Source: a virus. From it: a stretch of DNA of 20,723 nt. The stretch is from positions 1 through 20,723 of the IMG/VR virus record IMGVR_UViG_3300042691_025412. One strand, 5' to 3'. Shown here piece by piece: positions 216 through 20,723 of the stretch. A program made the translations under genes and the position numbers. The notes beneath the pieces are model-generated. The model had not been told where the DNA came from. It saw only the letters and a program-made list of their open reading frames with translations, and did not search any database. How positions within the stretch are numbered: the first letter of the stretch is position 1; each line of letters opens with the position of its first letter.

Positions 216-506
216 ATGAAAAAATTTTTCAGTCAAGTATTTCAAGACGAAACGGGTAATTTTTCATCAAAAAGATTAGTTGGTATTATTGCTGGATTAA
301 CTTTATGTGTAACTCTTTACGCTAATAGTTTTTCTCACGGTGATATAAAACCAGCAGATATCTTGGTAGAAGCTGTGGCTATGTTGTCGTTTGGTTGTTT
401 AGGTTTAGCCAGTATAGATAAAATCTGGGGTAAACGTGATTCTAACTCTGACGACAAACCAAAAAAAGTGGTCAAAGATATCATTGATGAAGTAAGTGAA
501 GAATAA
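216..506 (+). CDS. Small two-helix membrane protein, possible holin
   Basis: This 96-residue protein starts MKKFFSQVFQDETGNFSSKR. A cytoplasmic-looking N-terminal segment is followed by two hydrophobic helices at about residues 20-36 (LVGIIAGLTLCVTLYA) and 48-66 (ILVEAVAMLSFGCLGLASI), then a charged tail rich in Lys and Asp. Two helices, small size and a charged tail fit phage holins and holin-like proteins, and the D-E-x-G-x-x-SSxR start resembles small proteins of Bacteroidetes phages. The frame is open upstream to base 27, but the ATG at 216 follows an A-rich leader (ACACAAAACAAA) and the upstream residues look like translated non-coding DNA, so 216 is chosen. It is the only plus-strand gene in the left part, facing the minus-strand block across a terminator. 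The holin role is inferred from shape only. Confidence 0.75.
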   Translation: MKKFFSQVFQDETGNFSSKRLVGIIAGLTLCVTLYANSFSHGDIKPADILVEAVAMLSFGCLGLASIDKIWGKRDSNSDDKPKKVVKDIIDEVSEE

Positions 507-538: not shown

Positions 539-1195
539 TTAAGAATTTTTTTCGGAGGCATATTTTACTCCCATAATTGTGCCGACAATACTAAAAGCAT
601 TGGTTAGTAGTATTCCTATTATATTACTCCATGTCGAACCAATAACACTAGTATCAACACCAGCAAATAACGCAATTAAAAACATAAGTGTGGTTGTTAC
701 ACCAACACCCATAATAACCCAAAGAGCTACTTTAACTATTGTCCCAATTAATTCGAATTGAGATTTCTTTTGAATTAACTCTAAATCATTTTCAGCGTTG
801 GCCTTTGCGTTTTCAGCTTCAGCTCTTGCTGTCATAGCCTCAATCATTGATTTCTCAGCTTTGTCCTTGGATGCCTCTGCTTCTTCTTTTGCGTTTTCAG
901 CTTCAACAATAGCAACTCTATTAAGTTCTAGTGTTTCGAGTAGTTCACCATTAATTCGTTCATTTTCAGTTTTCCAATCGGTTAACTCTTTGTTTTGTTT
1001 TTGAATTTGTTTGGTTATTTCTAAACGTTTTTTCCTGGTTGCGTTGTCTTTTTCTATAGATTCATTAACATAATTTTGAAATTCAACATCACCATCAACA
1101 TCAATAACTTTCAATATATTACCTTCTAAAGATATTTTTTTTGTTTGATGGAGTTGGATTAATTGTTCTTTTGTTTTTTTATCTATTTTAATCAT
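539..1195 (-). CDS. Coiled-coil protein with two C-terminal membrane helices
   Basis: The protein has 218 residues. Residues about 50-150 form a long charged heptad-like region rich in Ala, Glu and Lys with repeated AEAENAK-type units, typical of a coiled coil. Two hydrophobic stretches follow at about 152-178 (TIVKVALWVIMGVGVTTTLMFLIALFA) and 188-210, then a short polar tail. It therefore looks like a C-terminally anchored membrane protein with a large coiled coil on one side. Its ATG overlaps the stop of the response regulator by one base (TAATG), implying translational coupling and a place in the same operon as the regulator and histidine kinase. No enzymatic motif is visible. Function unknown; acting as the output partner of the receiver is an inference from gene order. 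Confidence 0.85.
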   Translation of the reverse strand: MIKIDKKTKEQLIQLHQTKKISLEGNILKVIDVDGDVEFQNYVNESIEKDNATRKKRLEITKQIQKQNKELTDWKTENERINGELLETLELNRVAIVEAENAKEEAEASKDKAEKSMIEAMTARAEAENAKANAENDLELIQKKSQFELIGTIVKVALWVIMGVGVTTTLMFLIALFAGVDTSVIGSTWSNIIGILLTNAFSIVGTIMGVKYASEKNS

Positions 1196-1632
1196 TATCT
1201 ATAGATTTTAAATGGGTTGGTTTTGTTTTTGTAACCTTCGTAATCTTTTCTAAACTCTTCAAGTCTAGGTTCAATTTCATCTGATTTGATAATCCAAAAT
1301 TGTGCACCAGCTTGAATTGCTTTTGCTTGCTCGTTGGCTTCATCACTAGATGAAATAATACCGATAACAACATTGTTACCGTAATCAAAATTTATTTTTC
1401 TAATCAATTCAATACCATCATAAGATGAACCAATTATATTTAAGTCAACAAACACACATTCTGGTTTGTTTGAAGTATCAGCGTTTTCGTTCCAATCTTT
1501 GAACATGGTTTCAGCTGTGTCAGCACTATCTAAACTTTCTAAGGAAAGCGTTATGTCTAAAAGACTACATGCGTCTTCAAATACTAAGTGGAATAAATCT
1601 TCATCATCCACTAATAAAATAGAGTTAATCAT
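1195..1632 (-). CDS. Stand-alone response-regulator receiver domain (CheY-like)
   Basis: The 145-residue protein is essentially one receiver (REC) domain. The acidic pocket is D9-D10 (ILLVDDED), the phospho-acceptor is D63 (CVFVDLN), the conserved Ser/Thr switch lies in the run S94-S96 (GIISSS) and the conserved lysine is K116 (FWIIKSD). No DNA-binding or enzymatic output domain follows, so it probably acts by protein-protein contact, as CheY or Spo0F do. It lies 26 bases downstream of the histidine kinase and overlaps the next gene, for a coiled-coil membrane protein, by one base. A leader of AAAAAC repeats (1633-1660) precedes the ATG, as in other genes here. The receiver assignment is firm; the cognate partners are inferred from the operon. 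Confidence 0.92.
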   Translation of the reverse strand: MINSILLVDDEDLFHLVFEDACSLLDITLSLESLDSADTAETMFKDWNENADTSNKPECVFVDLNIIGSSYDGIELIRKINFDYGNNVVIGIISSSDEANEQAKAIQAGAQFWIIKSDEIEPRLEEFRKDYEGYKNKTNPFKIYR

Positions 1633-1658
1633 TTTTGTTTTTGTTTTTGTTTTTTTGT

Positions 1659-2894
1659 TTATTTTATTTTTATTCTTAATTTTGTACCTTGTTCTAACTT
1701 TTCAGCTGTGATATCAAAACCATGTTCTTTTAAAATCGCTTTACATATATTAAGTCCTAACCCAGTACCTGTTTCTTTTTGACCTTCTTTTCTAACGTAA
1801 GGTTTTGAAAGTTCATCAAAATCTTTCTGGTCAATACCCCTACCATTATCTTCAATACAAATATAACCATCTTCACTGTAAATTTTAACAAGTTTGCTTT
1901 TACTATCGTTGTATTTTAAACCATTTCTAATTAAATTATCAATAGATGTACACATCAAAGATTCATTGACTTCGATTGTAGGTAAATTATCATCTAAATA
2001 TACTTGTGATTTGTAAGCGGTGGAAGTTAAATAATCATCCATTATTTTTTGGATACTACATTCAGTTTTACTTAAAACCACATCAGTTTTTACCAAGTTG
2101 GTAAATTCATACACACCTTTATAAACTTTTTGGGTGTGTTTCAAACCTTCTTTTATCATTTTTAAAGGTGCTTCTAATTTTGCCGATTCTATGATTTCTG
2201 GGGTTAATCTTCTTTCTAAAGATGATACACCTCTAGGTATGTATGTATTAATACCAGAATGCATATCATGTCTTAATATCTTGGCAGCATGTTCTAGGTA
2301 TGTGTTTTTCTTGTCAATCTCCAATTGTTGGTTAATTTTTTCGGTAATATCAGTAGCTATTTTCATTACTCTGTAAGATTTACCGTTATTCCCAAAGATA
2401 GGGTTGTATGTCGCTTGAAGATAAATTAAATCACCATTTTTTTTCTTTCTGATAATTTCACCAGTAAAAAATTCACCTTTTTTAAGTGTTTCCCAAAAGT
2501 GTTCATATTCTTTAGTGTCTTTTACACCATCTTGAACAAATAAACTGTGATGCTTCCCTACAATTTCATCTTGATTTTCGTACCCTAATGTATTTAAAAA
2601 TAATTCATTTGCAAAAATTATCGTACCATCTAAATTAAACTCAATAACCGCATTCGATTTATTAATCGCGTCCATTCTATTGGAAAATTCATTTTCTTTG
2701 CGTCTTATTTTATTGTTAAAACCTTTTATGAAAAAATAAAAAGGTATGAAAAAAGTTATAAAACATATTAATTCAAAATAACCTAAAAATTTTGAATATT
2801 GAATTACATTTAAAAGTAATAAAGACTGTACGGTAAAAGATGCTAAAAAAATTAATATAGAAATTATTAGCGAAACTTTATATTTTGATATCAT
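1659..2894 (-). CDS. Membrane PAS-domain sensor histidine kinase
   Basis: The 411-residue protein from the ATG at 2894 has two membrane helices (about 7-30 and 37-57) with almost no external loop. A PAS/PAC domain follows at about 79-185, of the kind seen in chemoreceptors (KHHSLF, then TGEIIRKKKNGD, then YNPI and ATDITEK). Next is a HisKA-like dimerisation helix with probable phospho-acceptor H209 (ILRHDMHSG). The ATPase domain has an N box (N320, N324), a G1 box (D349-N-G-R-G) and a G2 box (G376-T-G-L-G). The frame is open to 2945, but that longer start would translate through a strong hairpin (2905-2947) and adds an unlikely polar prefix, so the inner start is preferred. With no periplasmic sensor loop, the input is probably cytoplasmic (redox, energy or small ligand). 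Complete two-component kinases are rare in phages. Confidence 0.92.
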   Translation of the reverse strand: MISKYKVSLIISILIFLASFTVQSLLLLNVIQYSKFLGYFELICFITFFIPFYFFIKGFNNKIRRKENEFSNRMDAINKSNAVIEFNLDGTIIFANELFLNTLGYENQDEIVGKHHSLFVQDGVKDTKEYEHFWETLKKGEFFTGEIIRKKKNGDLIYLQATYNPIFGNNGKSYRVMKIATDITEKINQQLEIDKKNTYLEHAAKILRHDMHSGINTYIPRGVSSLERRLTPEIIESAKLEAPLKMIKEGLKHTQKVYKGVYEFTNLVKTDVVLSKTECSIQKIMDDYLTSTAYKSQVYLDDNLPTIEVNESLMCTSIDNLIRNGLKYNDSKSKLVKIYSEDGYICIEDNGRGIDQKDFDELSKPYVRKEGQKETGTGLGLNICKAILKEHGFDITAEKLEQGTKLRIKIK

Positions 2895-2977: not shown

Positions 2978-3514
2978 TTAAGTTAAAATAAACCCTTTTA
3001 TCATCATATTATGTAGGTATTCCGAGTGTTCTATGTTCTTTTCATTAGCGTACCCAAGGCTCATATGCATCCCAAAAAATGGTCTACCTAAACCTATTTC
3101 ACTTCTGATGGCTTGTAACCCATCTCGTTCTTCGTTTGGGATATTCAACCACCAGCTTCTACCGTCACTTCTTGGGTTTAAATCCAACACTATTTCAATT
3201 TTCTTACCGTGCCATTTCTTCTTAGCAGCTTCCCACGCATTTAGAGCTTCTTCCTCGGACTTTTCCCCGTTTTGAGTCAAATCCTTCATGCTGTCGTTAA
3301 TAAACGAAATGTGGGCCCCTCTAAGAGGTTTATTCAATACCAAGTTGTATCTCTTTTTGATGAACCATGCGTAGTATTCGCAAATCTCTCCATCTATAAG
3401 AACCATAGCCATTTTTTTCCATGCGGCTTGATTCATGTGTTTTTTTGTCTTGTCTTCTGGCTCAAACTCAATCTTGCCAGTAAGTGTTATTCTATTCTTC
3501 ACGTCGTAATCCAA
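2978..3514 (-). CDS. Putative 2H-phosphoesterase-like protein
   Basis: The 178-residue protein carries two H-x-S motifs about 80 residues apart: H68-I-S70 in RGAHISFIND and H150-M-S152 in GMHMSLGYAN. Paired H-x-(S/T) motifs, each in a beta-strand and separated by 70-90 residues, define the 2H phosphoesterase superfamily (LigT, cyclic phosphodiesterases, phage Acb1). The spacing and the hydrophobic residues around them fit, but overall similarity cannot be tested here. Known members open 2',3'-cyclic or 2',5'-linked phosphates, and phage Acb1 destroys CBASS signal nucleotides. The start is unusual: the longest frame begins at TTG (3514), overlapping the upstream gene by 23 bases; a GTG at 3502 is an alternative. 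It is followed by a strong hairpin. The enzyme call is tentative. Confidence 0.5.
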   Translation of the reverse strand: MDYDVKNRITLTGKIEFEPEDKTKKHMNQAAWKKMAMVLIDGEICEYYAWFIKKRYNLVLNKPLRGAHISFINDSMKDLTQNGEKSEEEALNAWEAAKKKWHGKKIEIVLDLNPRSDGRSWWLNIPNEERDGLQAIRSEIGLGRPFFGMHMSLGYANEKNIEHSEYLHNMMIKGFILT

Positions 3515-3887
3515 ATAAATTGTTAAGTATTTCTGTATCTATCTCATGCGCGATTTCATGAGACAACAATGCTGTTAATTCGGCTTCTGCATCTATGTTA
3601 TGGAAGGCTCGTAAATCTTGAGCCATTTCTGGTGTCCATGAGACTCTTAATCCTCTCCAATAAGCTCCACCCCACTCTTTTTCAGGTAACCCGTTGTTAA
3701 GTGCCCATCTCTTTAAACAATAATCGCAATATTCTTTGGTATATTGGAATATTGTGATTAATGATGAGGTAACGTCACTTCCTTTTACCTCATGTGGGTC
3801 GTGTTTATCCCAAAACCTATTATCTTGTATGATATAGTTTTTGGTAATGTATTTGTTTATTAAATCATATTTATCTCTGGTTGTCAT
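3492..3887 (-). CDS. Short protein with a C-terminal segment resembling T4 major capsid protein gp23
   Basis: The protein has 131 residues from the ATG at 3887. Residues about 78-123 (VSWTPEMAQDLRAFHNIDAE, then an EL...LLS...EIA.EID.EI pattern) closely match the conserved T4-family gp23 capsid block, which reads roughly Y-T-x-E-x-AQDL-x-A-x-H-G-x-DAE-x-EL followed by EI..EIN.E. Residues 1-77 are not recognisable to me, although they contain YCDYCLKRW, and the protein stops soon after the capsid-like block. A normal capsid protein is over 400 residues, so this is a fragment or a domain reused in a small protein. The HEIAH string falls inside the capsid-like helix and is probably not a metalloprotease site. 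A weak promoter-like TATAATTG lies just before the start. The gp23 likeness is from memory of the family. Confidence 0.6.
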   Translation of the reverse strand: MTTRDKYDLINKYITKNYIIQDNRFWDKHDPHEVKGSDVTSSLITIFQYTKEYCDYCLKRWALNNGLPEKEWGGAYWRGLRVSWTPEMAQDLRAFHNIDAEAELTALLSHEIAHEIDTEILNNLFGLRREE

Positions 3888-3890
3888 ATA

Positions 3891-3921
3891 CAATTATACG
3901 AAAACCAGAGTAATATGTAAA
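3891..3921 (-). promoter_or_regulatory. Weak candidate promoter of the same class
   Basis: On the minus strand TTTA, about 19 bases, then TATAATTG (3898-3891) is one mismatch per box from the TTTG / TAnnTTTG pattern seen elsewhere in the window. It is only a few bases from the start codon at 3887, so transcripts would be nearly leaderless. Confidence 0.3.
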
Positions 3922-4657: not shown

Positions 4658-4867
4658 TTACCAACTATCGTAGTCGGTTATATCTTTTTTAACTTCAAAC
4701 AATCCTTTTTCTTTGCTTTTTATAATAACTTCAATGTTATCACCAATACCAGTTGGTGTAAAGCAAAACGTTCTTGTGTAGTGAGTCTCATGACCGTATA
4801 ATGTTTTAACAGCGTCTTCAACTTCTTTTAAGTTTTGTTTTTCTTTTTCGTTTAAACTAAAATCCAT
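4658..4867 (-). CDS. Small protein translationally coupled to the PARP gene
   Basis: This is a 69-residue protein starting MDFSLNEKEKQNLKEVEDAV. The frame is open to 4903, but the ATG at 4867-4865 overlaps the stop of the PARP gene as TAATG, the same junction used at four other places in this window, so that start is preferred. The N-terminal half looks helical and the C-terminal half appears to form short beta strands (TRTFCFTPTGIGDNIEVIIKS, then FEVKKDI). No family is recognised. Tight coupling suggests it is made with the PARP and may modulate or accompany it. Inference only. Confidence 0.7.
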   Translation of the reverse strand: MDFSLNEKEKQNLKEVEDAVKTLYGHETHYTRTFCFTPTGIGDNIEVIIKSKEKGLFEVKKDITDYDSW

Positions 4868-6156
4868 TAGTGTTCCATTTGTATTAAGTGAGAAATTGTA
4901 CATTGTACTGGATTGTAAATGATAAACTCATCATTTCTCAAGTCAGCACCACCGTGAGCGTATACGCTATCAAAACCATCCTTTTGGATGTTAGAGTAAC
5001 TCAAACTATAACACGATGAATCATGTTTGTGAATGTGTTTCTCGTTTCCTAAATGTACATCGAACAAAGCCAAGAAACCTACTTGAGAGTTCCCTCTAGT
5101 CCAATGAGAACCTGACAGAGAACTATACCCTAACGATTTTTGACTCTTGTTTGCAAAATATACACCGTCACCGAACATTGAACCAGTATACACCGCGCCA
5201 GAAGGTCTAATCATAAGACCAGTCTGAATAATGTTAAACCAGTTCTCGTTACGTGAACCATGCCAGTAAAGTCTTTTCTTTTTAACTTTGGCAGTTTTAA
5301 AGTGAGCATCAAACTTAGCTTGTGTAGCCAAGTTAACCACTTTGAAAATCTTTTTAGCTTTATTGGCGTTATCACCCAATAATTTTGTGATAAGATTAAG
5401 TGTTTCAGTATCTTTCTCAACTTCAACTTTAAGACCCATTTGAGTAAGAATGTCGATGTCTGACATTTCTTTACCAGTGGTTTCAACAGTTTGTTTTTGT
5501 TGTTTGATAAGTTTAACCTGACCAGCCATTGTGTCTAACGCGCTTTGTTCCTCACCTAACAACCTTTGAGCTTTCTCTAATTCAACATCATCACCCAACC
5601 CTTGAACCAAGTGGTTTTTAACGTTGTCCATCTTTCTTGGTATGATTGTGTAAAGCTTCAACAACTCGTTGTTAACGTCTTTAAGGTCACCACCAACTTT
5701 CAACATCGCAGTTACTCTAGATAGAACTTCTTGAGCTGATTCCACTTGTTGTTCAGAAACCGCATCTTGCGTTACTTTATAGTTTTTCTGGATAGACTTA
5801 TTCGCGTATGCCATAAGGTCTTGAACCAATTTCTTAACCATCGCGTCTTTGATTGCTTCAACGGTGTTATTTTTTGATGCAGCGTTAGAATCATCCACTA
5901 CTGGCTCAGCCAACAACTCAGTTACATCAGTGTAACCTTTTGTTGATGAAGTTTTCTCTCGTAATATTTTATCCCACTCGTTTTTACTCTTAAACACGGT
6001 AGCCATGTTTTTGCCCACTCTACCATACTCACATTTGATTCTACCATCTGAAAGTTCTTCCATAATGTAGACTTTGTTGCTATTGTCTGTTTTACCGTTG
6101 TCTACCGACACGTGAATCAGTTTAGCGTATCTTAATCCGTTTTCTTTTGTAATCAT
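4867..6156 (-). CDS. WGR-domain poly(ADP-ribose) polymerase-like ADP-ribosyltransferase
   Basis: The protein has 429 residues. The N-terminal WGR-like domain spans about 8-85 (EYGRVGKNM in place of WGR-x-G). A helical PARP regulatory domain lies at about 100-275. The ART catalytic domain spans about 290-429 and has the full H-Y-E triad: H299 in LYWHGSRNENW, Y333 in GDGVYFANKSQKSLGY, and E410 in NDEFIIYN. S341 and Y344 match the nicotinamide-contacting Ser and Tyr of PARP1. It should transfer ADP-ribose from NAD+ to protein or nucleic acid; a Glu third residue permits chain elongation in PARP1. The ATG at 6156 is chosen over an upstream one because the promoter -7 box (6173-6180) would leave that start untranscribed. 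It is followed by a coupled 69-residue gene. The family call is strong; the target is unknown. Confidence 0.9.
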   Translation of the reverse strand: MITKENGLRYAKLIHVSVDNGKTDNSNKVYIMEELSDGRIKCEYGRVGKNMATVFKSKNEWDKILREKTSSTKGYTDVTELLAEPVVDDSNAASKNNTVEAIKDAMVKKLVQDLMAYANKSIQKNYKVTQDAVSEQQVESAQEVLSRVTAMLKVGGDLKDVNNELLKLYTIIPRKMDNVKNHLVQGLGDDVELEKAQRLLGEEQSALDTMAGQVKLIKQQKQTVETTGKEMSDIDILTQMGLKVEVEKDTETLNLITKLLGDNANKAKKIFKVVNLATQAKFDAHFKTAKVKKKRLYWHGSRNENWFNIIQTGLMIRPSGAVYTGSMFGDGVYFANKSQKSLGYSSLSGSHWTRGNSQVGFLALFDVHLGNEKHIHKHDSSCYSLSYSNIQKDGFDSVYAHGGADLRNDEFIIYNPVQCTISHLIQMEH

Positions 6157-6172
6157 TTTAAATAATTTTTGA

Positions 6173-6204
6173 CAAATATACAATTATAATTTTAAATCAC
6201 CAAA
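6173..6204 (-). promoter_or_regulatory. Bacteroidetes-type promoter for the PARP operon
   Basis: On the minus strand TTTG (6204-6201), 20 bases, then TATATTTG (6180-6173) lies about 17 bases before the PARP start at 6156. Both boxes match the consensus exactly. Confidence 0.7.
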
Positions 6205-12228: not shown

Positions 12229-12259
12229 CAAATATACTACTTATTTTTAATCCTCCAAA
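12229..12259 (-). promoter_or_regulatory. Bacteroidetes-type promoter for the ligase operon
   Basis: On the minus strand TTTG (12259-12256), 19 bases, then TATATTTG (12236-12229), about 20 bases before the ATG at 12208. The -33 box lies inside the 3' end of the HD-hydrolase gene. Confidence 0.7.
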
Positions 12260-12750
12260 CTTTTTCCCAATAATTTTTCCAAATGTTCCCACATTGGTTT
12301 GGCAGCGATGGGTGTATTAAGGTACAAAACACCTTTGAACTCCGCGTATTCCTTGGCATACATGTCAATTTTACCACCGTGTTCGATGTTCGCAATTCTA
12401 TCCGCTAATTTTAAAATAATCGCATCTGGGTTGCTAGCTGTTTTAGGTAGAGTTTTCTCTTTTTTCTCTTTTCTGTTTCTTCCAAGCTCATCAGTAACAC
12501 AGAAAACCATCTCAGCGACTTCAATACCGAAATGTTTTTTAATGTCGTTGTAGCTTATACCATCATCTTCTATGGCATCGTGTAACCAAGCGGCCACAAT
12601 GTATTTCCCAGAGTAACCAAATCGTTTGATTACATCCACAACATCTTGTAAGTGTTTGTGGTATGGAAATATCTCATCATAGGATTGGTTGCTGTGCGCT
12701 TTGATAGCTACCAACTTTGCTTCTTCGTAAGTTTTGTCAGTGTAAGTCAT
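12247..12750 (-). CDS. HD-domain hydrolase of the SpoT/MESH1 type
   Basis: The protein has 167 residues. Metal- and nucleotide-binding motifs of the RelA/SpoT hydrolase domain are present: H31/H33 in FPYHKHLQDV, the HD pair H57-D58 followed by E61-D62 in AAWLHDAIEDDG, and D117 in LKLADRIANI. The size fits a small alarmone hydrolase or MESH1-like enzyme without synthetase or TGS/ACT domains. Such enzymes remove the 3'-pyrophosphate of (p)ppGpp; animal MESH1 also acts on NADPH. In a phage it may lower starvation alarmone during infection. Its ATG overlaps the stop of a 57-residue gene (TAATG). Substrate is inferred; related HD enzymes act on other nucleotides. Confidence 0.85.
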   Translation of the reverse strand: MTYTDKTYEEAKLVAIKAHSNQSYDEIFPYHKHLQDVVDVIKRFGYSGKYIVAAWLHDAIEDDGISYNDIKKHFGIEVAEMVFCVTDELGRNRKEKKEKTLPKTASNPDAIILKLADRIANIEHGGKIDMYAKEYAEFKGVLYLNTPIAAKPMWEHLEKLLGKSLED

Positions 12751-16678: not shown

Positions 16679-19396
16679 ATGGCAGTAGACAAAAAAATTA
16701 GTCAATTACCCGTTGGTTCATTAGATATGGCTAGCATTTTACCAGTTGTTACTAATGGAATTACAACTCAAGTAACTTTCGATACTTTCGCAACTGGAAT
16801 TATCCCTTACGTAAATGGTGGACCTCAAGGACCTGTGGGTCCAGCTGGTGCTGATGGTTTGCCTGGTGCTACAGGTCCTGAAGGTCCTCAAGGTATTCAA
16901 GGACTAACAGGACCTCAAGGTCCTACAGGTCCTACAGGTCCTACAGGTCCTACAGGTCCTGATGGTGCAGTAGGCCCTGCTGGTTTGCTATGGCAAGGTC
17001 TTTGGGATGGCGACACATCTTATAATATTAATGACGCTGTAGGTTTTAGTGGTGCTTCATATTTCTGTTATAACCCTGTTTCAGGTACTGGTAACGATGA
17101 CCCTACTGTTGATACAGCTAGTTGGGCGTTGTTAGCTGCTCAAGGAGCAACAGGTCCTCAAGGCCCTACAGGTCCTACAGGTCCTCAAGGTCCAGCCAAC
17201 ACAGCAACAACAATTTCTTATTTCGTATCTGGTTCAACTGGTATTAGTTCGATAAAAGCAATTAATGCAACTGGTTTGGATGCTACTGGAGATTACGCTT
17301 TTGCTATTGGTAGTCAAACACTTGCTAGCGGTATGTACTCATATGCTGAAGGTTATAAAGCATCTGCTACTACCACGGTAGCACACGCTGAAGGTTGGTC
17401 AACGTTAGCATCTGGTCCTGTATCACACGCTGAAGGTTATTTAACAACAGCTAGTGGTCAAATGTCACACACTGAAGGTTATCAAACTAAAGCTATTGGA
17501 AATTATTCACACGCTGAAGGTAATGGTACAACAGCTAGTGGTAACACATCTCATGCTGAAGGTGGTGGTACAAGAGCTACGGGTATTTATTCACATGCTG
17601 AAGGTTATCTAACAAGAGCACAAGGTCAATATACGCATGCTCAAGGTTATGCTACAATAGCTAATGGGACCTATGCACACGCTGAAGGTGTAGCTACATT
17701 GGCTAATGGTGGTAGTGGTAGTCACGCTGAAGGTAGTAGTACAACAGCTAATGGTAATAGCGCACACGCTGAAGGTCTTCAAACAACAGCAAATGGTGAT
17801 TATAGCCACACTGAAGGTTATCAAACAAAAGCTGATAATAATGGTGCTCACGCTGAAGGATTCTTTACAACAGCATCTGGTTTTACAAGTCACTCTGAAG
17901 GTGCTAACACAACGGCTGGTGGTGATTATAGTCATGCTGAAGGTTCTTTTGCGATTGCTATAGGTCAAGCAAGTCATGCTGAAGGTTCTGTTTCAATTGC
18001 AAATGGTTATGCGTCACATGCTGAAGGTGATAGTACAGCAGCTAATGGTGATTTTAGCCATGCTGAAGGTTTACAAACAACAGCATCTGGTGAAGCTTCA
18101 CACGCTGAAGGGTCAGAAACTCTAGCAAGTGGAAACTATTCACACGCTGAAGGTGGTTTGACAACCGCAAATGGTAATTATTCACATGCTGGTGGTAGTC
18201 AATCTATTGCTAATGGAGAAACTTCATTTGTACATGGTAGTAATTCACTAGCTGTTGGGTCAAGTACAATTGTTTTGGGTAATAATATTACTGGGTTAAC
18301 ATCAAATACAACATATGTTGATAGATTAAATATTAAAAATTTATTTACTGGAACATCTATAAATAATTTAGGCGTAGATGTTAATGGAAATGTAGTTAGT
18401 GGGCAATCATCTTATTGGAGTGCTACTGGTTCTAGTATTTATTATTCAGATAAAGTACTAATCAACGCAAATACTGATACCAGTACCAAGGTATTAACAA
18501 ATAAATTATTTGTTAATGGGGATGTAGGTATAATTGGTTCTTATAGAGTAAAAGGTGTTAATGGTTACTTCTTTGCTGATGATGCTACTGGTATGTATAG
18601 TGATACTGGGAGTAGTATAAAATTTAGGGCCTATAATCCAAATGGTAATCTTTTTGAATTTATACCAATATATCCTAGTTGGACAATTACTGGGGCCATT
18701 CAAAATGTTATTCATCAAAACTATACAATAAACCCAGTTACAGGTGGAACAGCAATTAGAATGATTAATTTAGAACCTACAATAAATCAAACAGGTTCTA
18801 CATCATCAATTATCCATGGTGTTAGAATTGCACCTACATTAACTTCAGCTTTTGATTTTAGAGCAATTGAAGTAACAGGTGGTAAAGTAATAATACCTAA
18901 TGGAAGTTCTGCTAACGAAGCGGTTAATTTAAGTCAAATAACTGGGATGACTGGAACATCTATTAGTGGTGGTACTTTTACTAACCCTAACACTAAGATT
19001 ACTTTACCAAGTAGTACTGGTTCTACTGGTGAAATAGTTTATTTTGGTACAGGTTCAGGGTTATCGGCTGGTTTGATTTATTATTTCAATAGTTCAGGGC
19101 AATGGACAGTAGCTAACGCAACAACCGTTAGTTCATCAAAATATTTAATAGGAATTGCGTTGGGTACATCAATAACAGATGGTATATTGATTAAAGGTTA
19201 CGCTAGATACGCTGTAGGGAATTATTCAAGTGTTGGTACTGGTGATGTTTTATATTTAAGTACTACAAACGGTTTTTTCCAAACAACAGCTCCTTCAAGT
19301 TCAAATGAAGTGGTTAGGGTTATTGGATATTGTATAGATAGCGTTAATGATACTATTTATTTTAACCCTGATAATACTTGGATAGAAATAGTTTAA
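16679..19396 (+). CDS. Tail-fibre/adhesin with collagen-like and YadA-head-like repeats
   Basis: The protein has 905 residues. The N-terminus [20 protein letters not shown] is a typical start of Bacteroidetes phage structural proteins. A collagen-like G-x-y stretch (about 47-102, [11 protein letters not shown]) is followed by a spacer resembling a carbohydrate-binding module ([20 protein letters not shown]), then a second short collagen stretch (about 157-175). Residues about 206-528 hold some 22 copies of a 14-residue unit with consensus xSHAEGxxTTAxGx, as in the left-handed beta-roll heads of YadA-type trimeric adhesins. The rest is beta-rich with a C-terminal domain (from about 760) shared by fibre-type proteins. 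It should form a trimeric rod for host binding, with the collagen part giving flexible stalks. It lies between a small virion gene and a glycosidase-like gene. Confidence 0.9.
16922..16957 (+). repeat. In-frame 9-bp tandem repeat (CCTACAGGT) x4
   Basis: Four perfect copies encode the PTG run of the first collagen-like stalk; diverged CCTxxxGGT units flank them, and shorter runs recur near 17157-17190. Copy change by slippage would lengthen or shorten the stalk without a frameshift. Confidence 0.85.
17294..18262 (+). repeat. About 22 tandem 42-bp units (14-residue SHAEG repeats)
   Basis: The units code for xSHAEGxxTTAxGx with variations (AHAEG, SHTEG, THAQG, SHSEG, and final SHAGG and SFVHG). 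Units are diverged at DNA level, with conserved TCACACGCTGAAGGT cores. One unit around 17696-17730 (GGSGSHAEG) is longer by two residues. Confidence 0.9.
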
Positions 19397-19402
19397 GATA
19401 TC

Positions 19403-20723
19403 ATGACAACAGTTAATTATACAGCATCCACATCTATTATTGCAAACCCTGAAAGGGGTTTGCAAAAATATTCTAAAAACACAAGTGGAGGTTCTTATTC
19501 TCTCATTAACCAAACAACATTAATAAATAATAGAACAGGTAGTGATAAAATAACTGTTTTATATAGGTATATAATGTTAGAAAATTATATGAATACTGAT
19601 ATCATAGATTCTACTTATTTAAATAATTTACAAACAGATTTTACTAGAATAAGAAATGCTGGTGTTAAAGTAATTCCTAGAATTGCTTATAATATAACAA
19701 CAACAGCTAGCACACAACCTTCAAAAAGTAGAATTATAGCCCATATAGAGGCGTTATCAAGTACGATAAATGCAAATAAAGATGTTATATTGTCTATACA
19801 AGCTGGTTCTATTGGTTTATATGGAGAATGGTTCTACACTGATAGTAGTACTGAATTTGGAGACCAAAGCAATGTATCTCCAAGCCAATGGTTGAATAGA
19901 CAAAATGTTGTTGATGCTATGTTAAACAATTTTCAAGATGTACCAATTCAATTAAGAACAGCTAAAGCTAAAAGAGAAATGTACGGTTCAACTTTAATAT
20001 CTAATTTAACAGCTTATCAAAACACACCATTGGCTCGTATTGGTTTTTATAACGATGCTTTACTAAATAGTTATGGAGACCAAGGTACTTATGAAATTAT
20101 TGGTCAATGTACTAACCCAGTTGGTAGTGTTGATTACGATTTGATATCTAATGCTGGTATTTATTTACCTAACACTGGAGAATCAAATGGTTTTAATTCT
20201 TGTAATGGAGGGTTAAGAACTAGTGGTGTCAACGCAACCTATGAATTTAACTTATTAAATTTTAGTGTTATAAATAGAGATTATTACCTACCAGTTTGGG
20301 ATGGTTGGATAGCTCAAGGTTATTATGATGAAATATTAAAAAATATGGGTTATCGATTAGTATTATCATCATCTACACTAAACGGTAATAATTTAACACT
20401 AAATATAAATAACGTAGGTTATGCTAAAATTTTATTTGAGAAAAAAGTTTATATAGTTTTAAGAAATGCTTTAAACGTTGAGTATAAAAGACTTTTGGAT
20501 AAGGATTTTAGAACTTTGAATAAAGGTAGTAATAGTTTTAATTTTAACATACCTAATGATGTACCTGATGATACGTATGATTTATATTTACATATTTCAG
20601 ATAAAAATGCTGGTTTAGAAGATATGCCAGCATATTCTATTCAATTAGCAAATATAGGTTTATGGGAAAGTGCAACTGGTTATAATGATTTACAACAAAC
20701 AATAACTATTACATCTTCGGGTA
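19403..20723 (+). CDS. DUF4874/DUF4832 glycoside-hydrolase-like protein, 3' end beyond window
   Basis: This frame is open for 440 codons from the ATG at 19403 (MTTVNYTASTSIIANPERGL) to the window end, with no stop. N15-PERG-19 is the signature start of DUF4874. Residues about 50-150 look like the first strands of a TIM barrel, with QAGSIGLYGEW (E142-W143 as a possible catalytic-acid position). ARIGFYNDALLNSYGDQGTY (211-230) marks the start of DUF4832, and a beta-sandwich-like end (NNLTLNINNVGYA, VPDDTYDLYLHISD) follows. These paired domains occur in secreted Bacteroidetes proteins and are related to glycoside hydrolases. Six bases after the fibre gene, it is likely a virion-associated glycan-binding or glycan-cleaving protein. 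Activity is inferred. Confidence 0.82.
   Translation, partial: MTTVNYTASTSIIANPERGLQKYSKNTSGGSYSLINQTTLINNRTGSDKITVLYRYIMLENYMNTDIIDSTYLNNLQTDFTRIRNAGVKVIPRIAYNITTTASTQPSKSRIIAHIEALSSTINANKDVILSIQAGSIGLYGEWFYTDSSTEFGDQSNVSPSQWLNRQNVVDAMLNNFQDVPIQLRTAKAKREMYGSTLISNLTAYQNTPLARIGFYNDALLNSYGDQGTYEIIGQCTNPVGSVDYDLISNAGIYLPNTGESNGFNSCNGGLRTSGVNATYEFNLLNFSVINRDYYLPVWDGWIAQGYYDEILKNMGYRLVLSSSTLNGNNLTLNINNVGYAKILFEKKVYIVLRNALNVEYKRLLDKDFRTLNKGSNSFNFNIPNDVPDDTYDLYLHISDKNAGLEDMPAYSIQLANIGLWESATGYNDLQQTITITSSG

Follow-up and report, generated by a model that had tools for sequence, protein, structure and literature searches.

A phage-encoded operon of histidine kinase, stand-alone receiver and membrane coiled-coil protein with a possible role in the timing of host lysis

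The locus and the layout of the operon

The window analysed here, that is, the whole stretch of DNA (20,723 bases), is a fragment from IMG/VR which covers positions 1 to 20,723 of the record IMGVR_UViG_3300042691_025412. A preliminary description of this DNA had reported, on the minus strand between positions 539 and 2894, three consecutive genes coding for a histidine kinase with a PAS domain (HK), a receiver that stands alone (REC) and a coiled-coil protein with membrane helices (CC), and all three open reading frames are found there (Table 1). The frame of HK opens at 2945, and the start at the ATG in 2894, chosen in that description, is preferred because it places the transmembrane (TM) hairpin as in the relatives. 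The stop-start coupling proposed for REC and CC is also borne out, with one base common to both genes in the sequence TAATG at 1195. Among the relatives, the overlap between these two genes is of -1 in 64 and of -4 in 63 of the first 160 loci, and from these 127 loci it is predicted that REC and CC are translationally coupled.

Table 1. Coordinates of the operon, of its predicted functional sites and of the neighbouring holin candidate in the window.
Feature	Position	Strand	Characteristics
HK, PAS histidine kinase	1659..2894	-	411 aa; N-terminal TM hairpin, one PAS, divergent dimerisation/H-box domain, HATPase_c
Phospho-acceptor His H209 of HK (predicted)	2268..2270	-	Motif RHDMHSGIN, invariant in 62 kinases
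REC, stand-alone receiver	1195..1632	-	145 aa, without output domain; Response_reg PF00072
Phospho-acceptor Asp D63 of REC (predicted)	1444..1446	-	Invariant in 92/92 relatives
CC, membrane coiled-coil protein	539..1195	-	218 aa; AlphaFold2 model, 45-member alignment A1, TAATG overlap
CC N-terminal cap, residues 1-36, candidate docking site for the receiver (from the model)	1088..1195	-	Small alpha/beta cap; LEGNI motif
CC rod, residues 37-148, coiled-coil spacer	752..1087	-	Length differs only by multiples of 7 residues
CC TM1, residues 152-177	665..742	-	Hydrophobic, conserved
CC TM2, residues 188-212	560..634	-	Almost invariant; polar and small residues fixed in 45/45
HOL90-family protein, two-helix, holin candidate	216..506	+	96 aa; convergent to the operon; family recurs beside the operon

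Elsewhere in the window, a protein of 133 residues (3492-3893, minus strand) matches the major capsid protein Gp23 family over residues 80-127 (E 7e-15), and this capsid-protein fragment lies in a region of non-structural genes. The gene at 4867-6183 (minus strand) codes for a phage poly(ADP-ribose) polymerase, in which the PARP catalytic domain is matched with E 2e-24, and relatives of this protein are found in Cellulophaga phages and in an uncultured 462-kb phage. The product of 12247-12750 (minus strand) holds an HD-type motif (HDAIEDD) and, as read from its sequence, resembles a small (p)ppGpp hydrolase. On the plus strand, 16679-19396 encodes a collagen-repeat protein of 905 aa that also contains many YadA-head-like SHAEG repeats and is probably a tail fibre, and a protein with DUF4874 and DUF4832 (19403-20722) runs off the end of the window.

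Conservation of the gene order and ownership by phages

To avoid a selection biased by REC or CC, loci were collected by scanning DNA for the kinase motif RHDMHSGIN alone, keeping those with at least 2 kb downstream (n = 48). Both REC and CC are carried downstream of the kinase in 47 of these 48 loci, and in the remaining one REC is present downstream, so the linkage of the three genes put forward in the preliminary description is maintained in the relatives. HK is located directly upstream of REC-CC in 138 of the first 160 loci, and the order HK-REC-CC is found in 124 of 152 distinct CC loci, with 8 more in which one gene separates HK from REC.

The inserts seen between HK and REC code for a GIY-YIG-like protein, identified by its sequence (L048, L124, L198 and L284), showing that the operon tolerates an insert, and for YceI (PF04264), which is apparently devoid of a signal peptide (L327, L328 and L165; E 5e-43 for the insert of L327). 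YceI proteins bind isoprenoids, and this insert may be related to the signal that is sensed. The exceptions to the gene order are two large records (G001 and G002) with REC and CC but without this kinase, and two large records with CC alone (L116 and L147, which correspond to G003 and G004). The CC proteins of L116 and L147 are ~90% identical to that of the intact operon of L102, and represent a natural loss of REC and the kinase.

One scan of IMG/VR yielded about 590 stretches encoding REC relatives, and a second scan yielded 476 with CC relatives. In INPHARED (50,697 GenBank phage records), tblastn searches gave no match to REC or CC, and those with the kinase retrieved generic kinases only. 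When 84,980 species genomes of bacteria and archaea were scanned with the CC profile, by a method that relies on exact short peptides and could therefore let distant cellular relatives escape, a single relative, L161, was recovered. On the contig of L161, HK-REC-CC is accompanied by genes that resemble those of PhoH, a terminase and a portal protein (read from the sequence), and because of these neighbours this contig is regarded as a phage contig misbinned in a metagenome bin. In the phylum of this bin (245 genomes), a strong match to REC is found in the genome of L161 only.

Hundreds of contigs share this gene order, which excludes chance or a mis-join as its origin. The concern that the operon might be host DNA is likewise answered by its presence in hundreds of viral contigs and its near absence from species genomes, and it is very likely a real operon that belongs to phages. 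The closest cultured phages according to the DNA ligase are the Cellulophaga phages phi4:1 and phi17:2 (53% identity), and for this reason the host is probably Flavobacteria-like; searches with REC and CC gave no match in these two phages.

A kinase with a fixed transmitter and varied sensors

HK matches HATPase_c (E 8e-16) and PAS_9 (E 2e-13) in Pfam. The preliminary description considered it a complete histidine kinase, and this is correct regarding the catalytic boxes, since none of the 62 kinases compared departs from H209 or from the residues of the N, G1 and G2 boxes, and HATPase_c is found in 62/62. However, the term has to be qualified for the dimerisation part, as the Pfam domain HisKA is matched in none of the 62 kinases, although the His of the motif RHDMHSGIN is nonetheless invariant.

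The H-box of the kinases, EHAAKILRHDMHSGINTY, is nearly constant among relatives. The N-terminal sensor ranges between 82 and 515 residues, and its anchoring is equally diverse: 40 of the 62 kinases have an N-terminal TM anchor, 12 have a periplasmic loop, and 10 lack TM segments. Regarding the sensor domains identified with Pfam, PAS is present in about 45 of the 62 kinases and GAF in 23, with 0-3 PAS domains per kinase. A nearly constant H-box combined with variable N-terminal sensors therefore points to one output core that has been wired to many inputs. In addition, the H-box of the transmitter and REC appear to have been frozen together, which suggests that they form a private kinase-receiver pair.

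Several loci (L048, L065, L067 and others) hold two kinases, the second of which is the periplasmic-loop kinase, and between them a gene for a member of a secreted coiled-coil family (with a signal peptide and the sequence YPIQTIxKGDSVVILT). The structure model of the protein encoded between the kinases is of low confidence (mean pLDDT 63). In L375, L383 and L390, this secreted family is encoded beside the endolysin instead, and it is possible that it represents a part shared by sensing and spanin function.

A receiver without output domain

REC scores 35.3 bits against Response_reg (PF00072; curated cut-off, 30.2), which is its sole Pfam match, and the LytTR DNA-binding domain is absent from it. 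All 92 receivers compared keep the key residues that had been reported as intact (D9, D10, D63 and K116), together with S94/S95. The lack of an output domain noticed in the window is also common to the other loci, in which REC consists of about 143-150 aa with the receiver part alone. Identity of the relatives to the window proteins is 71-83% for REC and 49-68% for CC, and the dN/dS of REC (about 0.03-0.08) denotes strong purifying selection. No REC-CC or HK-REC fusion proteins were found among the relatives.

The possibility that REC is a derived form of the cREC domain of jumbo phages was considered and rejected, because a kinase is adjacent in 124 of the 152 distinct loci. Both are receiver-like and come from large phages, but cREC is reported never to occur with histidine kinases and to be linked to NAD/ADPr enzymes (PMC7824862), while REC is a classical receiver that is nearly always encoded in a kinase operon.

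A membrane protein with a register-locked rod

The coiled coil and the two C-terminal membrane helices that had been recognised in CC are reproduced by the AlphaFold2 model (mean pLDDT 87), which consists of a cap (residues 1-36), a long helix (37-178) that runs into TM1, and another helix (183-216). The LEGNI motif of the cap is conserved in alignment A1, and the size of the protein ranges from 184 to 246 aa among relatives. Between two conserved anchors, the coil has 50, 57, 64, 71, 78, 85 or 92 residues in 147 of 149 proteins, all of these lengths being equal to 1 modulo 7, so that the coil changes in length with no shift of the heptad register between the cap and the membrane. The two exceptional coils have 103 and 110 residues, 11 and 18 above the commonest class (92). 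Such register locking would be expected if the coiled coil relays a conformational signal, and it is the strongest hint that CC would function as a transducer and be more than a tether.

TM2 is the most conserved segment of CC, with residues W189, N191, T198, N199, S202, G205, T206, G209 and K211 invariant in 45/45 proteins. The polar stripe of this helix was not significant in a helical-moment test, in which 11% of the shuffles reached the observed value, and for this reason no claim of a pore is drawn from it.

No holin family of Pfam or PHROGs is matched by CC, which has no Pfam match of any other kind either, the MCP signalling domain included. The identification of CC as a known holin or as a chemoreceptor was rejected, since neither family nor structure matches. 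The UniProt protein A0A6J5PRT3, from an uncultured Caudovirales phage, is 55% identical to CC and has the same predicted fold (216 columns); it is uncharacterised and carries no assigned function or system.

Neighbourhood of lysis genes

Among the neighbours of the operon, the most frequent is an endolysin that combines PG_binding_1 with GH19 (Pfam, and lysis families of PHROGs). Other neighbours include Phage_lysozyme, Peptidase_M15_3, an Amidase_2 enzyme and the endolysin-like protein phrog_33083, while Phage_holin_10 is near the operon in 8 loci and spanin-like genes appear among the flanks too. A lytic enzyme is located one gene away on either side in 45 of 122 fetched loci (permutation mean 11.8, maximum 23), and in 17 of 47 after collapsing the loci at 70% CC identity (permutation mean 2.9, maximum 9; 5000 permutations).

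This association was also examined by an independent test at the level of whole records. GH19 endolysins were sought in 40 records of 100 kb or more, and 26 of these (105-430 kb) have one. The endolysin is at 2.5 kb or less from CC in 14 of these 26 records (1.1 expected) and at 6 kb or less in 17 (2.2 expected), and it is 25-119 kb off in 8. The link with lysis genes suggested in the preliminary description is supported: lytic enzymes are about 6- to 13-fold above expectation, with formal probabilities that are too small because the loci share ancestry. The linkage is not universal, with 41 kb between operon and endolysin in G261, the nearest large relative of the window, although in the clade of the window a holin-like gene adjoins the operon.

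Taken as a whole, genes for small TM proteins show a weak enrichment beside the operon (0.16-0.18 versus about 0.1), and the argument for lysis consequently rests on the cell-wall enzymes and on the named families. With respect to the gene of the window that had been called holin-like, its size and position agree with that name, but it has no Pfam or PHROG match. The HOL90 family to which it belongs has 23 occurrences near the operon, in 11 of which it directly adjoins CC downstream.

In the locus L375, HK-REC-CC is continued on the same strand by genes for two small TM proteins, for an Rz-like and a secreted coiled coil, which overlap, for a GH19 endolysin and for the endolysin-like protein.

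Proposed mechanism and alternative explanations

According to these data, the operon is proposed to encode a phosphorelay that belongs to the phage and has its output at the membrane, where it most likely times or gates host lysis, a joint claim for which the chances are put just above even. Taken separately, it is likely that REC acts through contact with CC, which is favoured as its output because of the gene overlap, the near-obligate co-occurrence of both proteins and the register-locked rod, and it is moderately probable that the purpose is the control of lysis. In this signal-transduction pathway, the sensor would read the state of the cell or of the envelope, and the kinase would set the phosphorylation of REC. 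Lacking a DNA-binding domain, REC would exert its effect by docking onto the cap or the proximal coil of CC, the rod of which would pass a register change on to the TM hairpin. This hairpin would restrain or trigger the holin step, or might itself open the membrane, and the endolysin would thereby act at a chosen time.

Several observations speak against this explanation. Neighbourhood is not function, and the GH19 endolysin is distant in 8 of 26 large records. CC has no holin family match and is bigger than typical holins, and small TM proteins are only weakly enriched beside the operon. Finally, REC and CC occur without the kinase in two records and CC alone in two, and REC-CC fusions are lacking among the relatives. 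A more far-reaching proposal, namely that a two-component system of tailed phages with interchangeable sensors, whose receiver acts directly on a membrane coiled-coil rod, fires or holds lysis by cell state and constitutes a new class of lysis control, is tentative, with odds slightly on the side of its being wrong.

The operon might instead serve some other purpose in the envelope, for instance to exclude superinfection or to remodel the envelope during infection, and be near lysis genes because envelope-acting late genes cluster. This would account for the link with the endolysin not being universal and for the neighbours found in the clade of L161, where tail-like, OmpW-like and sugar-enzyme genes take the place of lysis genes. 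It is nevertheless unlikely, given that the enrichment is strongest for cell-wall enzymes, that these come from several unrelated families, and that they are immediately adjacent.

It is likewise unlikely that CC itself is the holin or pore, in such a way that REC or REC~P on the cap alters the rod register and causes a TM2 oligomer to open. The strong conservation of TM2, with its fixed polar and small residues (45/45), the predicted topology with two TM helices and N-in/C-in orientation, like that of class II holins, and the many loci without a recognised holin family adjacent are all consistent with a pore. However, separate holin-like genes coexist beside CC (Phage_holin_10, or the two small TM proteins in L375), and both the lack of a holin family match and the size of CC (184-246 aa) argue against it.

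An interference of HK and REC with host two-component signalling, as a phosphate sink or by hijacking it, with CC as a tether that localises REC, is quite improbable. Stand-alone receivers can serve as phosphate sinks, and the persistence of REC and CC in G001 and G002, which lack the phage kinase and in which a host kinase might feed them, is in line with such a function. Nevertheless, the co-frozen H-box and REC suggest a private pair, and the rod and TM segments of CC are conserved far beyond the needs of a simple tether. Finally, a contig mis-join or host DNA has a negligible probability, because the operon is found in hundreds of independent viral contigs of up to 430 kb and its sole match in the 84,980 species genomes sits on a phage-like contig.

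Relation to known systems and implications

The preferred reading, a phosphorelay that ends at the membrane and controls lysis, combines parts which are of known kinds. The CheY-like stand-alone receivers of bacterial two-component systems likewise work with a HATPase_c kinase with its His and hold the DD, D, S/T and K residues of the receiver, and as REC has no output domain, its output would be exerted by protein contact, as in those systems. HK-REC-CC differs from them in being encoded by phages, in an H-box domain that is unmatched by Pfam HisKA, and in having as partner a dedicated coiled-coil protein with two TM helices encoded in the same operon. The changes in length in multiples of seven, with the register kept, are shared by CC with chemoreceptors and other coiled-coil signalling rods, but CC has neither the MCP signalling domain nor HAMP, and the signal would run from the cytoplasmic cap to the membrane.

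With regard to lysis, the two-component system LytSR (LytST) is tied to the holin-like proteins LrgAB/CidAB and to murein hydrolase activity (PMC2996381, PMC8805020). LytR is a DNA-binding transcription factor, whereas REC lacks an output domain and CC is unrelated in sequence. The timing of lysis by holins and antiholins (T-RI-RIII of T4, class II holins) resembles the role proposed here in that sensing is tied to lysis timing, and CC also has two TM helices and a lysis neighbourhood. In contrast, a kinase and a receiver would replace the antiholin in HK-REC-CC, and CC holds a long cytoplasmic coiled-coil arm. A description of a phage-encoded operon of this kind could not be found in the open-access literature (CC0, CC BY and CC BY-SA), and within that literature the assembly of these parts is without published description.

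The timing of lysis in phages is usually ascribed to clocks based on holin accumulation and to a few antiholins. If the interpretation proposed here is true, HK-REC-CC would offer a module specific to phages whose input at the sensor, phosphotransfer and output at the membrane can be studied one by one, and many environmental phages would make an informed decision on when to end the infection.
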